A stretch of DNA of 48,242 nucleotides from Lentisphaerota bacterium (GTDB lineage: Bacteria > Verrucomicrobiota > Kiritimatiellia > PWTM01), in the NCBI GenBank assembly GCA_016873715.1, contig VGWF01000016.1:1-48242 (forward strand), given 5' to 3'. The notes below the pieces were generated by a model. That model saw nothing but the letters and a program-made list of their open reading frames with translations, did not search any database and was not told the DNA's origin. Below are positions 2,066 through 48,242 of this stretch, one piece after another. The translations under genes and the position numbers were made by a program. Numbering within the stretch: position 1 is the first letter of the stretch; each line of letters starts with the position of its first letter.

Positions 2066-3064
2066 GTGAAGGACCCGGTCGTCAGCTTCGTCATCCCGAC
2101 GCTCAACGCGGAACGCCTCCTGCCGGGGTGCCTCGCGTCGATCCGGGCGCAGGACGTCGATCCGGCGACGGTGGAGATCCTCGTCGCCGACGGCGGCTCG
2201 CGCGACGGAACGGCCGCCGTCGCCTCGCGCCACGGTGCAACGATGGTCGATGCGGCGGGCCTGATGGCCGAGGCGGCCAAGCGCAAGGCGTTCGAGGCGT
2301 CGCGGGCCCGGTACATCGCCCTGTTGGACGCCGACAACGAGATCGTCGGCACCGCGTGGCTGCCGCGCGCGCTCGCGGCCCTCGACCGGCACCCGGAGGC
2401 GCTGGGCTTCGAGTCCTACTACCTCAAGTCCCCCGCCCATACCGCGCTCAACCGCTACCTGACCTCCTGCCTGCAGATCAGCGACCCCTATGCCCGGTTC
2501 CTGGCCGGCCGGCCCCGGCTGGCCGCGCGCGAGACCGGGGACGTGGAGGTCTACCAACTCCCCGCCGACGGCTCCTACCCGACCGGCGCCAACGGGTTCA
2601 TCTTCCGCCGCGAACTGGCCGGCCGCCTTCCCCGCGGCGAGGCCTACCACGAGGCGGTGTTCTTCCCTGCGCTGATGCGCGAGGGCCTGCAGACGCTGCT
2701 CAAGATCCGCGGATGCGGCGTGCTGCACCACTACGTGACATCGTGGGGCGACTACTACCGCAAGCGGCAGCGCGCGATGATCATCCGCGGCCTGCGCCGC
2801 GAGGAGGCCCCCGCGACGTGGGACGCCGGCGGCGGCGGGCGGAAGCTGGCGGCGCTGCTCTACTTCGGAACCGCGGCCGGTCCGGCGGTCGAGGGGCTGG
2901 TCCGCGCCGTCGCGTCGGGCGACCCCGACTGGCTCCTCCATCCCCTCGCGGGCCTCGTCTCCACCGCCGGCAACGCGCTCGGGATCCTCCGCGCCCGAAG
3001 CCGGGTCGACCGCGCGGCGCGCGAGCGCATGACCAAGGCGCTGCACGACCGGGCGCAGCGATAG
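2066..3064 (+). CDS. Family 2 glycosyltransferase
   Basis: This is a GT-A fold transferase of about 332 aa. The strand-turn VSFVIPTLN near the N-terminus, the VEILVADGGSRDGT segment and the ALLDADNEI motif (DxD-type metal/nucleotide site) are standard for GT2. A GTG at 2066 places the conserved start of the fold at residue 4. An in-frame ATG at 1982 would add 28 residues of Pro/Gly/Arg-rich sequence with no resemblance to the family, so the GTG is preferred although its ribosome site is weak. No membrane segments are evident. It ends 5 nt before the convergent end of another GT2 gene. It probably adds a sugar to a surface polysaccharide; donor and acceptor are unknown. Confidence 0.88.
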   Translation: MKDPVVSFVIPTLNAERLLPGCLASIRAQDVDPATVEILVADGGSRDGTAAVASRHGATMVDAAGLMAEAAKRKAFEASRARYIALLDADNEIVGTAWLPRALAALDRHPEALGFESYYLKSPAHTALNRYLTSCLQISDPYARFLAGRPRLAARETGDVEVYQLPADGSYPTGANGFIFRRELAGRLPRGEAYHEAVFFPALMREGLQTLLKIRGCGVLHHYVTSWGDYYRKRQRAMIIRGLRREEAPATWDAGGGGRKLAALLYFGTAAGPAVEGLVRAVASGDPDWLLHPLAGLVSTAGNALGILRARSRVDRAARERMTKALHDRAQR

Positions 3065-3069
3065 AGGGG

Positions 3070-3966
3070 TCATCCCCGCCGCAGGAACAGCCGGTCGAAC
3101 AGGAACCTCCAGGCCGAGGCGCGGAACAGCGACCGCCAGTTCTTCTGCGCGAAATCCAGCGGATGCAGCAGCATGTTGCGGAGCATGGCCTTCCGGGCCA
3201 TCTCGGTCGGCGCGAACGGATCGAGTTCCGGCAGCGCGAGTTCGTCGCGGAGCCACGTCAGGTAGGCGATCCACTTCTGGTCGATGGCCACCCACTGGCC
3301 GTCGGGCGGCGGCGGACGGTCGTCCCGCGTGCTGATCACCGGCTCCCCGGCCACGACCACCTTCGCGCCGGCGGCGGCGAGCGGACGAATCATCCCGAAC
3401 ATGTGCGGGAAGTCCGTCGCGAGGCTGGCGCGCGCGTAGGCGGCGTCATAGCAGTCGGTCCGGAAGATGTTGCTCGAAAGAAGCGTGTGCTCGGTCAGGG
3501 CGCCGGGATTGCGGGCGGCGCACGCGCGGGCGAACGCGCGGTAGTCGGCGAAGACGGCCGGCACGTCGAGGCCGAGGCGGTACTTCGTGTCGTAGACCAG
3601 AAGCAGGCCGGGGTCGTGCGCTTCGAGCAGGGCCAGCACGCTGTCCAGGGCGCGGGGATCGAGGATCTCGTCGTCGCCCAGCAGCCAGCAGAAGCGGCCC
3701 TTCGCCATCTCGCACGCGGTGCAGAGGTTCGGGTTGATGCCGAGGTTCCGCTCGTTGCGCGAGGACGCCAGCGGCAGGCCCTCCCCCTGGAAGCGACGCA
3801 CAACCTCCGGCGTCCCGTCCGGCGACCCGTTGTCCGACACCGCCAGCGCCACCCGGTCCGGTCCGTGGCCGCCGGCGCGGATCTGCGCGGCCAGCGACCC
3901 GAGCATCTCGCCCAGGTACGCGGCCCGGTTGTAGGTCGGAATGCAGACGGTCAGAAACGCAGCCAT
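3070..3966 (-). CDS. Family 2 glycosyltransferase
   Basis: This GT2 protein of about 298 aa begins MAAFLTVCIPTYNRAAYLGE, then has VALAVSDNGSPDGT and WLLGDDEIL, which carries the DDE form of the metal-binding motif. The open frame extends further upstream, but the ATG at 3966 has GGAG 9-10 nt ahead of it and starts exactly at the fold, so it is chosen. It is divergent from the methyltransferase gene at 4263. A perfect 16-bp inverted repeat lies between the two genes. The C-terminal region lacks membrane helices, so a soluble or membrane-associated inner-leaflet enzyme of polysaccharide assembly is likely. Sugar specificity cannot be predicted. Confidence 0.9.
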   Translation of the reverse strand: MAAFLTVCIPTYNRAAYLGEMLGSLAAQIRAGGHGPDRVALAVSDNGSPDGTPEVVRRFQGEGLPLASSRNERNLGINPNLCTACEMAKGRFCWLLGDDEILDPRALDSVLALLEAHDPGLLLVYDTKYRLGLDVPAVFADYRAFARACAARNPGALTEHTLLSSNIFRTDCYDAAYARASLATDFPHMFGMIRPLAAAGAKVVVAGEPVISTRDDRPPPPDGQWVAIDQKWIAYLTWLRDELALPELDPFAPTEMARKAMLRNMLLHPLDFAQKNWRSLFRASAWRFLFDRLFLRRG

Positions 3967-4052
3967 GTCGTGGTCTCCAGGGCCCACCGTCTCCCATCCA
4001 ACCGCCCGTTGACAAGTGGAATCAACCTCCGACTCCATGCCGTCTTCACGCA

Positions 4053-4098
4053 AGGTGTAACATTATCGAGTGCGACCGCATCCGATAATGTTACACCT
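4053..4098. repeat. 46-nt near-perfect inverted repeat in a divergent promoter region
   Basis: The left arm 4053-4068 (AGGTGTAACATTATCG) is exactly complementary to the right arm 4083-4098. The interior (4069-4082) continues with one mismatch, one G-T pair and four more pairs (TGCG/CGCA), so the whole 46 nt can form one hairpin. The arms are AT-rich compared with the surroundings. It lies 86 nt upstream of the minus-strand GT2 start and 164 nt upstream of the methyltransferase start. It could be a repressor operator, a cruciform or a REP/MITE-type mobile palindrome. Confidence 0.85.
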
Positions 4099-4262
4099 GC
4101 CAGGCGGGTCCCGGGCGCGGCAACGGGGAGATTGGCGGCCGCGAACCGGGGCGGAACGGCACGCCGGCCTTGTCCGTCCCCGCGGAAAGGATTGATCGGG
4201 CGCCTCGAAACCGCTATGAAGTCGCGGATTCGCGCGCGGGCGCGGGGAAAGGTCTGGATTTC

Positions 4263-5546
4263 GTGAGCGTCATCGAACGGACGACGTGCCGGGTGTGCGG
4301 GAAGGGCGGGATGGCCCCGATCCTCTCCCTGGGCGACCAGTATGCCGTGGGGTTCCTGGACACCGCGGATGAGACGACCGTCAAGGCGCCTCTGGACCTC
4401 GTGCTCTGCGAGTCCTCCAGGGGCGGCTGCGGGCTCCTGCAGCTCCGCCATACGCTCGATCACGAACTGCTCTACCGCCGCTACTGGTACCAGTCCGGCA
4501 TCAGCACGACGATGGTCGCCGCCCTGGCCGACCTCGCCGGGGCCGCGACGCGTGTCGCGGGGCTGAAGGCCGGCGACCTGGTCATCGACATCGGCTGCAA
4601 CGACGGGACGCTCCTCAAGCAGTACGCCGTCCAAGGCCTGGACCGGGTCGGCTTCGAGCCTTCCAACCTCTGGAAACTGGCCGAGTCCAGCGGCGCCCGG
4701 ATCCTGAACGACTACTTCAACGCCGCCACGTTCCGCCGCGAACTGGGCGCCCGGCGCGCGCGCGCGATCACGAGCATCGCGATGTTCTACGACCTCGAGG
4801 ATCCCAACGCCTTCGTGCACGACATCACGGAGTGCCTCGAACCCGACGGCCTGTGGATCGTCCAGATGAACTACCTCGGCCTGATGCTGACCGAGAACAC
4901 CTTCGACAACATCAGCCACGAGCATCTCGAGTACTACTCCCTGCTCTCCGTCGAGGCCCTGCTGAAGCGGCACGGTCTCGAGGTGATGGATGTCGAACTC
5001 AACGACGTGAACGGCGGCAGCTACCGGCTCTACATCCGGCGCGCCGGCGCCCGCATCGGACCGGCCCCCGGCGCGGCCGGGCGGCTCGCCGCCGTGCGCG
5101 GCGACGAGGCCCGCCGCGGCTTCGACGGCCGCGAGGTCTACGACGCGTTCTCCCGCCGGATCGCCGGCATCCGCGACCGCGTCCGGGGCATCCTGGAGGC
5201 GGAGAAGGCCGCCGGGCGGCGGACCTACATCTACGGCGCCTCGACGCGCGGGCTCGTCGTGCTCCAGTACGCGGGCATCACGTCGGATCTGATCCCCGCC
5301 GCGGTGGACAAGAACCGCGACAAGTGGGGACGCTTCATCGCGGGCACCGGCATCCCGGTGATCCCGTTCGACGACTACCGCGCGAACCCGCCGGACGTGC
5401 TGCTCGTCCTTCCCTACCAGTTCAAGCGCGAGATCATGCTGCAGGAGGCGGACTTCCTGCGCCGCGGCGGGCGGATGGTCTTCGCGATGCCCGAGGTCAG
5501 CGTCGTGGGCGCGGCCGACCTGGCCGCCCTGGAGGCCGCATCATGA
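4263..5546 (+). CDS. SAM-dependent sugar C-methyltransferase-like protein
   Basis: This protein of about 427 aa has the three-part layout of the NovU/TylCIII-like C-methyltransferases. An N-terminal zinc-type region (TTCRVCGKGG, later LCESSRGGCGLLQL) is followed by a class I SAM-binding domain with the glycine motif VIDIGCNDGTLL and the SNISHEHLEYYSL segment. The C-terminal domain (YGASTRGLVVLQYAG, AVDKNRDKWGRF) is characteristic of Methyltransf_14. Start: the GTG at 4263 begins just before the zinc motif and has GGGGAAAGG upstream; a TTG at 4170 would add non-conserved residues. Its stop overlaps the next gene by 4 nt. It probably methylates a keto-deoxy sugar nucleotide made by the neighbouring dehydratase. 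Confidence 0.88.
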   Translation: MSVIERTTCRVCGKGGMAPILSLGDQYAVGFLDTADETTVKAPLDLVLCESSRGGCGLLQLRHTLDHELLYRRYWYQSGISTTMVAALADLAGAATRVAGLKAGDLVIDIGCNDGTLLKQYAVQGLDRVGFEPSNLWKLAESSGARILNDYFNAATFRRELGARRARAITSIAMFYDLEDPNAFVHDITECLEPDGLWIVQMNYLGLMLTENTFDNISHEHLEYYSLLSVEALLKRHGLEVMDVELNDVNGGSYRLYIRRAGARIGPAPGAAGRLAAVRGDEARRGFDGREVYDAFSRRIAGIRDRVRGILEAEKAAGRRTYIYGASTRGLVVLQYAGITSDLIPAAVDKNRDKWGRFIAGTGIPVIPFDDYRANPPDVLLVLPYQFKREIMLQEADFLRRGGRMVFAMPEVSVVGAADLAALEAAS

Positions 5547-6505
5547 GCCGCATCCTGATCACCGGCGTCACCGGCTTCATCGGAAGCCATCTCGCGCAGT
5601 CCCTGCGCCGCGAGCACGAGGTCTTCGGCCTCATCCGCCACGCGACCAGCCGCGACATGACGCGTCTCGGCCCGTTCCTCGAGGGCGTGACGCTCGTCAC
5701 CAGCGACCTGTGCGACCTGTTCGGCATCCAGGGCGTGCTGCGGAAGACCAACCCGGACGTGGTCGTCCACCTCGCCGCGATGAGCCCCGTCCGCAACTCG
5801 TTCGAGATGCCCTTCGCCTACGTGCAGGCGAACGTCACCGGCACGCTCAACCTCGCGCACGGCATGCTCGATCTGCCGCGGTTCCGGAAGCGCAAGCTGA
5901 TCTACGCCGCGACGGCGGAGGTCTACGGCATCCAGGCGAAGCCGCCGATCCCCGAGGACGCGGTGCTCCAGCCGTCCAGCCCCTACGCGAACACGAAGTC
6001 GATGACCGACACCTACCTCCGGATGATGACGCCGGTCTACGGCCTCAACACGACCGTGATGCGCTGCGTGAACACCTACGGGCGGAAGATCGAGACCAAC
6101 TTCATGGTGGAGTACCTCGTCACCGCGATGCTGAAGGGCGAGCGCGTCTACATCGGCGCGCCGGACTCGCTGCGCGACTACATGTACGTGACGGACCACG
6201 TCGACGCCTACCGCGCGGCGATCCGCCACGCCGACATCGCCGGGGAGGCGTTCAACGCGGCGGCGGGGTTCGTCGTGTCCAACCGCGACCTCGCCCTCCG
6301 GATCGCGAAGCTGACCGGGTTCCCGCGGCGCAAGCTGGTGATGGGCGAGTATCCGCCGGGCTACCCGAGCCGCCCGCTGGCGTCGGACCAGCCGTTCATC
6401 GAGCTCGATGCGACCAAGATCCGGACGATGCTCGGATGGAAGGCGAAGGTCGGGCTCGACGACGGCCTCCAGCGCACCGTCGCGCACTGGCGCAAGACGC
6501 TCTAG
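5543..6505 (+). CDS. NAD(P)-dependent sugar-nucleotide epimerase/dehydratase (GMD-like)
   Basis: This 320-aa short-chain extended-family enzyme has the Rossmann motif TGVTGFIG at residues 7-14, AATAEVYG in the position of the Thr-x-Glu catalytic pair of GDP-mannose 4,6-dehydratases, and SPYANTK with the Tyr-x3-Lys pair. RDYMYVTDHVDAY is the usual substrate-domain motif. The Thr-x-Glu arrangement favours a 4,6-dehydratase over a simple 4-epimerase. Because GDP-heptose genes lie nearby, a GDP-heptose 4,6-dehydratase (DmhA-type) is possible, but this is inference. It is translationally coupled (ATGA) to the methyltransferase upstream, and its end overlaps by 4 nt the convergent end of the nucleotidyltransferase gene. 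Confidence 0.88.
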   Translation: MSRILITGVTGFIGSHLAQSLRREHEVFGLIRHATSRDMTRLGPFLEGVTLVTSDLCDLFGIQGVLRKTNPDVVVHLAAMSPVRNSFEMPFAYVQANVTGTLNLAHGMLDLPRFRKRKLIYAATAEVYGIQAKPPIPEDAVLQPSSPYANTKSMTDTYLRMMTPVYGLNTTVMRCVNTYGRKIETNFMVEYLVTAMLKGERVYIGAPDSLRDYMYVTDHVDAYRAAIRHADIAGEAFNAAAGFVVSNRDLALRIAKLTGFPRRKLVMGEYPPGYPSRPLASDQPFIELDATKIRTMLGWKAKVGLDDGLQRTVAHWRKTL

Positions 6506-7221
6506 GCGGGCAGCGCCCCGAACCGCCGCAGGGCCTCCTCGGCCTCGCGGATGTTCTTCATGTCGTTGACCGACACCCATTCCTCGCCGCCGGAGAGCAT
6601 GTAGCCGGCCAGCTTCCCATCCGCCGCAAGGCGCGTGAAGACGGCATCCTCGATCGACCCGGTCTGCGGCAGCAGCGGACGGATCGCGCGGTTGAACAGG
6701 TAGACCCCGATGCTGACCGGAACCTGCGGCAGCTGGCGGCCGTACTTGAAGCCGGAGATGCGGCCGTCCGGCTCGTGATCGACCACGCTGAACCGGCAGA
6801 AGAACGGCGCGAGGGCCATTGTCACGACGGACCCGCACCGGCGGTGCACCGCCTCGAGGTTCGGCAGCGAGAGGTTCGTGATCTCGTCGCAGTTCATCGC
6901 GAGGAAGTCCTCCTCGTCCGCCGGAACGTGCCGCTCGATGGCCAGGCGGAAACCCTGCGCCGTGCCGCCGTCGAGCGTGTGCTCGCTGATGCGCACGTCC
7001 ATGCCCAGGCCGCCGCCGGCGGCGATGTGGTTCACGATCACGTCGCCGCGGTAGGCGACGCCGATGACCACGCGCCGGATGCCCTGCGACTGGAGCCAGC
7101 GGAGCACCCAGTGCAGGAGCGGCTGGCCGCCCGCCGGCACCATGCCCTTGGGCCGGTCGTCCGTCAGCGGCTTCAGCCGCTCGCCCCGCCCGCCCGCGAT
7201 CACCACCGCCGTGCGAATCAT
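6502..7221 (-). CDS. Sugar-1-phosphate nucleotidyltransferase
   Basis: This 239-aa GT-A-like pyrophosphorylase begins TAVVIAGGRGERLKPLTDDRPKG, the classic G-x-G-x-R...K signature that binds the NTP, followed by the LHWVLRWLQSQGI helix. FLAMNCDEI carries the metal-binding Asp, and GVYLFN and SVNDMKNIREAE match the core of the family. It is short, without the left-handed beta-helix domain of bifunctional enzymes. It is the last gene of the long minus-strand operon and overlaps the preceding methyltransferase stop by 4 nt. It activates a sugar phosphate, but whether with GTP, CTP, UTP or dTTP cannot be decided. It is a second nucleotidyltransferase besides the HddC-like one at 10492. Confidence 0.9.
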   Translation of the reverse strand: MIRTAVVIAGGRGERLKPLTDDRPKGMVPAGGQPLLHWVLRWLQSQGIRRVVIGVAYRGDVIVNHIAAGGGLGMDVRISEHTLDGGTAQGFRLAIERHVPADEEDFLAMNCDEITNLSLPNLEAVHRRCGSVVTMALAPFFCRFSVVDHEPDGRISGFKYGRQLPQVPVSIGVYLFNRAIRPLLPQTGSIEDAVFTRLAADGKLAGYMLSGGEEWVSVNDMKNIREAEEALRRFGALPA

Positions 7222-47788: not shown

Positions 47789-48173
47789 TCGCGCCTGACC
47801 CAAACCGCAGGCCCGCGCCTGGTGCAGCCCTGACCCGCATCGCTTCTCGGCTCCGCCCCTTGCCCGCGCCCCCGCCCATGCGACCATGCGGCCATGATCC
47901 GGCTTCCCAGAGGGCGGAAGCACTACAACCCGCTCCACGGCCTGACCAGGGCGCGGCGCGTGTCCCTGGAGGAGGTCCTCGACCGTGATGCCCTCCAACC
48001 CCTGCAACTCTCGCATCACCCACGCGAGGGACGCCATGGACGAGCCGTATGATGTCCACGCGCCGGCCCGGACGCCCGCCGGTTCTCGATTCCCCGCCGC
48101 CGGCTCCCTCCCCGCCCCGCGCTTCCGGCGTGCATCGGTCCGGCCGCTCCGCTACCATCCGCAGCCGTGGTTC
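47789..48173. other. Region between the lipoprotein gene and the selenocysteine tRNA
   Basis: These 385 nt have no firm gene. A 52-codon plus-strand frame (47894-48052, beginning MIRLPRGRKHYNPLHG) and a minus-strand frame are open, but neither has a ribosome site or a recognisable family. selA and selB are not seen here. Confidence 0.4.
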
Positions 48174-48242
48174 GGAGGTGGCTGGGGCCCGGTGGCCCTT
48201 GCGGTCTTCAAAACCGTTGTGCCGTCGCAAGGCGGCGGGTAG
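48174..48242 (+). tRNA. selC: tRNA-Sec (anticodon TCA), truncated at the window end
   Basis: The start GGAGGTGG (48174-48181) can form the 8-bp acceptor stem typical of tRNA-Sec. The D-stem has 6 bp (GGGGCC/GGCCCT) with loop CGGT. The anticodon loop CTTCAAA (48206-48212) shows TCA at 48208-48210, held by GCGGT/ACCGT. A long variable arm GCCGTC-GCAA-GGCGGC follows, then GGGTAG begins the T-arm and the window ends. The 6-bp D-stem, UCA anticodon and long variable arm are together specific for selenocysteine tRNA. The missing 3' part should pair with the acceptor start. Confidence 0.92.

Follow-up and report, generated by a model that had tools for sequence, protein, structure and literature searches.

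A selenocysteine tRNA gene split by a contig end leads a sel cluster followed by probable selenoproteins of the CptL and CptG families

The last 69 bases of the window (the whole 48,242-nucleotide stretch analysed; contig G000:C16 of a 5.13 Mb MAG of 289 contigs, 97.6% complete) are the 5′ three quarters of an intact bacterial selC gene, split by a contig break. On a second contig, G000:C12, the gene heads a selC-selA-selD-selB cluster. Leaving aside the electron relay proposed below, the clients of this cluster are very probably the deiodinase-like, CptL and CptG selenoproteins encoded downstream, with UGA read through a SECIS. The tRNA gene is ordinary by itself; the interest lies in the two possibly Sec-only families beside it, whose names, cptL and cptG, were coined in this analysis. 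Ordinary gene calling would read both proteins as ending at the TGA. As selenoproteins, they would connect the use of Sec with a conserved redox cassette, often linked to sel genes, that occurs in four or more phyla of uncultured bacteria.

The selenocysteine tRNA gene

A first-pass annotation had taken positions 48174-48242 for a tRNA-Sec gene cut by the window edge, and this reading held. Analysis of window positions 47800-48242 with cmscan gave a plus-strand match to bacterial tRNA-Sec (RF01852) over these bases, with the 3′ end missing (43.1 bits, E 1.9e-07). The fragment lies under the RF01852 gathering score of 47, and a whole-window scan at that threshold, together with ARAGORN, called no tRNA-Sec. 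The last ~170 bases of the window are repeated at the start of C12 with 99% identity, after which C12 runs on. The complete gene was identified there by ARAGORN as tRNA-SeC (109-202, anticodon TCA) and scored well over the gathering threshold (79.3 bits, E 2.6e-15, 91/91 positions). Features in the window are as follows.

48070..48242, no strand assigned: overlap with the start of G000:C12; selC-selA-selD-selB-cptL-napH go on outside the window
48174..48242, plus strand: selC, 5′ part, 69 of 94 bases (GCCA included in the 94); the rest is C12:178-202
48174..48181, plus strand: acceptor stem 5′ half, GGAGGTGG, 8/8 pairs with CCACCTCC at C12:191-198
48184..48199, plus strand: D-arm, 6-bp stem GGGGCC/GGCCCT (one G-U) and 4-nt loop CGGT
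48208..48210, plus strand: anticodon TCA inside the loop CTTCAAA (48206-48212), as assigned by ARAGORN on the complete copy
48221..48236, plus strand: long variable arm GCCGT-CGCAAG-GCGGC, 5 bp

The 6-bp D-stem, TCA anticodon and long variable arm on which the annotation had relied are all present, and its 8-bp-type acceptor was borne out by the full pairing of GGAGGTGG with CCACCTCC. It had pointed to the 30 nt past the edge as the place where pairing could fail; the T-arm lies there (5-bp stem, one G-U) and the acceptor 3′ half pairs perfectly. The 8+5 acceptor/T stems, 6-bp D-stem, TCA anticodon, long variable arm and encoded GCCA are those of bacterial tRNA-Sec, from which the gene shows no difference of note. 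Anatomy and score rule out an ordinary tRNA-Ser or tRNA-Leu.

The aligned C16/C12 overlap contains one indel and one mismatch, as might be expected if the C16 fragment were a further copy of tRNA-Sec, either separate or degenerate, and distinct from the C12 gene. Both differences fall outside the tRNA, however, and both contigs end inside the common stretch, as at an assembly break. Moreover, no other complete tRNA-Sec copy was found in the MAG, and we consider a second copy very unlikely. The overlap differences (48070-48242), including first bases that are also unlike, suggest strain variation or contig-end errors. Ten RF01852 matches were obtained across the MAG, the weakest two at 32 and 31 bits; among the eight strongest, the C12 gene was the only genuine tRNA-Sec. 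A match on C64, over threshold at 49.9 bits, is a tRNA-Ser according to ARAGORN, and the six next matches were assigned to tRNA-Ser, -Leu or -Cys.

The sel cluster and Sec use in relatives

The annotation had expected selA and selB outside the window and had proposed a search for selA, selB and selD, whose absence would speak against it. All three were recovered on C12 directly past selC, in the overlapping order selA-selD-selB starting ~15 nt after the tRNA. Their products exceeded the curated cut-offs for SelA (517 bits), SelD (345 bits) and SelB (258 bits), and identification of the tRNA-Sec and sel cluster is virtually certain. Four further genes lie past selB, the last on the opposite strand (coordinates on C12, locus L003):

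218-1663: selA (TIGR00474)
1660-2931: selD (TIGR00476)
2928-4919: selB (TIGR00475)
4939-5217: cptL, 92-residue protein
5492-6379: napH-like Fe-S gene, Fer4_5 domain
6406-7068: deiodinase-like gene (PF00837)
7591-7085, minus strand: cptG, Sec part

The closest taxon-labelled relative of SelA is from a Kiritimatiellae MAG (L014, 73% identity). Sec use is patchy among relatives: of 97 genomes searched, 13 have tRNA-Sec, the present one among them. One relative (G011) has two tRNA-Sec matches over cut-off, on C133 and C38 (L096 and L106; 71.9 and 63 bits). FdhA is described in a 2026 review (PMC13188914) as the most widespread selenoprotein client. No match to molybdopterin oxidoreductase (PF00384) was found in the present genome, with the control positive in 11/14, which rules out FdhA as a client here.

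The first-pass annotation had further suggested that TGA-ended genes elsewhere in the genome may be selenoproteins. Three such genes (cptL, the deiodinase-like gene and cptG) occur just downstream; inside the window, a reading-frame composition scan and the cptL and cptG family profiles revealed no TGA-interrupted gene. Over the window and most of C12 the scan flagged five TGAs, one of them in the deiodinase-like gene. The other four (L012, L013) look like gene boundaries.

The deiodinase-like gene is present in single copy with one internal TGA. Its PF00837 match (79.4 bits, over cut-off) spans this TGA, and in alignments with the iodothyronine deiodinases of type III (4tr3) and type II (9h48) the TGA codon coincides with the catalytic position. 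In both respects the gene resembles the deiodinase-like bacterial selenoprotein listed in PMC13188914. It differs in its location within a sel cluster, in its motif (TUPPF, against UxxC in the review table) and in scoring under the NCBIfam NF038285 cut-off (171 of 250 bits). The hairpin of the gene folds no more stably than shuffled sequence does (z 0.36); it satisfies the published bSECIS model, as do 19/100 shuffles.

CptL and its NapH-like neighbour

CptL has an N-terminal hydrophobic helix and is a predicted small membrane protein. Its gene ends in CPT-TGA-CTG-TGA (CPT-TGA-Leu-stop). We assembled 20 cptL homologues: the gene at hand, those of 15 of 50 SelA-bearing genomes, and four more from a search of 68 genomes belonging to the phylum of a Hydrogenedentota MAG (cptL in seven, three of these already counted). 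The taxon-labelled carriers belong to Kiritimatiellae, Opitutia/Verrucomicrobia, Hydrogenedentota, Sumerlaeota/BRC1 and Omnitrophota. The CPT-TGA motif is present in 20/20, and in all of them a second in-frame stop follows 0-2 codons on, so that the TGA codon (Sec) would specify the last, penultimate or third-last residue.

The NapH-like gene lies 3′ of cptL on the same strand at 20/20 loci. Its match starts 125-406 nt past the cptL TGA in 19/20, the twentieth being cut by a contig end. The order selC-selA-selD-selB-cptL is found in seven loci (the present one, L014, L016, L017, L020, L027 and L040). The encoded protein shares the Fer4_5 domain with the NapH/MauN ferredoxin-type membrane proteins (TIGR02163) but scores far under the cut-off of that family (52.2 vs 213 bits), for which reason we label it NapH-like rather than NapH. 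Unlike NapH/MauN, its gene neighbours encode putative CxxU selenoproteins.

If the cptL TGA were an ordinary stop, the hairpin behind it would be a terminator or a chance structure of GC-rich DNA, and the same would hold for cptG. TGA is the commonest stop here, accounting for 10 of the 19 readable stops of the neighbouring napH genes used as a control. Against this, another stop within three codons occurs in just 1/19 of those genes, whereas the second cptL stop is invariant. A terminator role for the hairpins was rejected, as no plus-strand terminator-like site was found between cptL and napH in the present genome.

CptG

Motif-bearing CptG was found at 17 loci, distributed over 12 genomes, and the position of the TGA is identical in 17/17. 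The protein is conserved for some 30-50 residues past the TGA in every case, giving conserved coding on both sides, which is at odds with an ordinary stop. Five more homologues (C46 of the present genome, G002, G006, G007 and G081) cross the same region with neither a stop nor the CxxU motif, again against that reading. Two truncated pieces in G063 (L134, L135) were left out of the count because the site lies outside them. Some variants carry C-A-S, C-R-S or C-S-H in place of C-P-T/S before U. An N-terminal stretch resembling a signal peptide can be made out by eye in CptG relatives, and two Sec-form relatives matched SHD1 at 25.9 and 30.1 bits (cut-off 23.7). In L101, L112 and L184 cptG adjoins napH-like genes.

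The CptG of the present genome reads MCPT-TGA-GGGGGYLGEVAKPG, where the residues after the TGA are GGGGG. Its SHD1 part (L003:7917-7546, minus strand; 27.8 bits) does not share a reading frame with the Sec part (7591-7085); this copy may therefore be broken or misassembled, the frameshift being either real or an assembly error. The paralogue at G000:C46:23559-23978 (L132) has SHD1, lacks CxxU and has a frame without a stop. A Kiritimatiellaeota MAG (G353; contigs C43 and C195; L187, L190 and L191) encodes three Sec-type CptG proteins, two of them ~1 kb apart on one contig. Structural comparison contributed little: the best PDB relative (E 0.069) was not used, and a single-sequence AlphaFold model was discarded (mean pLDDT 47), leaving the relay proposed below without support from a fold.

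Co-occurrence with tRNA-Sec was evaluated in 288 genomes of the phylum, calling tRNA-Sec at 57 bits or more on RF01852. Where relatives scored 48-54 bits, the match was counted as a tRNA-Ser cross-match, after the example in the present genome. TGA-type cptG occurs in 8/288 genomes and tRNA-Sec in 15/288; seven have both (hypergeometric 1.7e-9, relatedness ignored). cptL is present in 2/288, both tRNA-Sec positive. In the four genomes with motif-less CptG only, tRNA-Sec of at least 57 bits is absent, the matches of 50.8 and 52.3 bits in G002 and G006 being taken as tRNA-Ser. G190 departs from the pattern, having two TGA-type cptG genes (L128, L133) but no tRNA-Sec match and no SelB over cut-off. 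This may reflect missing sequence, as that MAG is in 590 contigs and 91% complete. The 50 SelA-bearing genomes are uninformative on this association, having been chosen for SelA.

SECIS-like hairpins and decoding of the TGA

Conservation of the hairpins also speaks against ordinary stops in the two families. In an alignment of 16 cptL sequences, 88.2% of 110 cells of the helix are paired, 16 are changed on both sides, and six of the seven pairs show such a change (covariation 0.505). The alignment retained L180, which is visibly misaligned; four sequences of the 68-genome search were not in it. None of 500 shuffles was as high on pairing, double changes or covariation, and sliding the helix reduced pairing to 27-64%. 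As the cptL helix sits past the true stop codon, protein constraint cannot produce it. For cptG (17 sequences), 94.8% of 153 cells are paired with 13 double changes and a covariation of 0.366; 0/500 shuffles were as high on the same three measures, although here the coding sequence also constrains the helix.

The published bSECIS model was satisfied by 15/17 cptG hairpins (all but L129 and L186) compared with 116/1700 shuffles (6.8%). Strict agreement was seen for 10/20 cptL hairpins compared with 110/2000 shuffles (5.5%), the failing ten having mostly AUGGC-type loops with Gs at loop positions 3-4. GC-rich DNA folds easily, and the cptG hairpin of the present genome taken alone is weak in this regard (z -0.94; 36/200 shuffles as good), which favours chance folding. 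Set against the covariation of both helices, the conserved protein past the cptG TGA and the paired cptL stops, the view that these TGAs are ordinary stops appears very improbable.

Several genes with an in-frame TGA would also be expected if TGA had been reassigned to sense (e.g. Trp or Gly), the tRNA-Sec being incidental. Yet selA, selD and selB of this genome themselves end in TGA, and the TCA-anticodon tRNA has the full tRNA-Sec anatomy. Each internal TGA, moreover, lies in a CxxU motif or the deiodinase active site and is then followed by a hairpin. Reassignment is a negligible prospect.

CptL and CptG are highly likely to be selenoproteins, a judgement drawn from comparative sequence evidence. 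The selC-selA-selD-selB cluster would make Sec-tRNA and deliver it to UGA codons. SelB would decode the client UGA as Sec because the hairpin ~20 nt downstream acts as a SECIS.

Novelty and Sec-only character

Neither family was recognised by existing models. Eight CptL and five CptG members gave no match in NCBIfam 20.0, and Pfam returned chance-level matches only (best E 0.0095), the N-terminal SHD1 of CptG apart. None of the 119 families tabulated in the 2026 review (PMC13188914) could be recognised as CptL or CptG. A literature search retrieved no paper on CptL or CptG; the Sao and Tso papers and the groundwater-MAG survey cited in PMC13188914 lay outside its scope. Among known families in the review table, SaoC and KCU-star resemble CptL and CptG in having a Cys/Sec redox pair and, judged by their names alone, share the C-terminal Sec of CptL. 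They carry CU, unlike the C-P-T/S-U of CptL and CptG (PMC13188914).

A selenoprotein family is usually accompanied by Cys-containing homologues. No Cys form of either family occurred among the matches in the 288 and 50 genomes, nor any of CptL in the 68. The deep-Sep authors (PMC12013277) write that Cys-containing homologues now seem to exist for every known selenoprotein and that their method may filter out selenoproteins without them. Homology methods that require Cys/TGA pairs can thus miss selenoproteins. CptL and CptG appear to be examples of this: in genomes without tRNA-Sec, the CptG relatives are devoid of the motif and no CptL relative turned up.

A possible electron relay

NapH-type proteins carry electrons across membranes, and mammalian thioredoxin reductase has a flexible Cys-Sec tail. 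The layout of CptL, putatively membrane-anchored with a CPTUx end, resembles this tail. From these two parallels we tentatively propose a relay from the NapH-like protein through CptL to CptG or another substrate; its electron flow, topology and substrate are deduced by analogy. The NapH-like membrane Fe-S protein would hand electrons to the CxxU selenyl-sulfide of the CptL C-terminal tail, and membrane-anchored CptL would then reduce a periplasmic partner. CptG, with its signal-peptide-like N-terminus, SHD1 and CxxU, is a candidate for that partner, or could be a parallel client of the NapH-like protein. The CxxU motif may alternatively bind metal.

On a broader and equally speculative proposal, CptL and CptG are Sec-only families lacking a Cys counterpart and, together with the NapH-like protein, make up an extracytoplasmic selenothiol relay. 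This relay, not formate dehydrogenase, might sustain Sec decoding in some lineages of Kiritimatiellae, Hydrogenedentota, Sumerlaeota and Omnitrophota.

The CptL-NapH pair could instead serve selenium supply, reducing selenium or delivering it to SelD, rather than act as a general redox client. Its position directly after selB in the seven loci above, which span at least three phyla, would suit such a role, as would the Cys-rich N-terminal extension of the SelDs at these loci. Client selenoproteins, however, often adjoin sel genes. The presence of cptL in just 15 of the 50 SelA-bearing genomes, together with the occurrence of the same extension where a genome gave no cptL match, indicates that Sec synthesis can proceed without cptL. 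We regard a selenium-supply role as rather unlikely.

The SelD extension is an observation in its own right. It is a Cys-rich stretch of ~55 residues (GHCVCNxxxxCPCxxFxxxNVCPCAGE), present at L003:1660-1830 and at about 30 other loci and conserved across many phyla. Both the SelD and the AIRS model begin past it, and its role is perhaps in metal or selenium handling.
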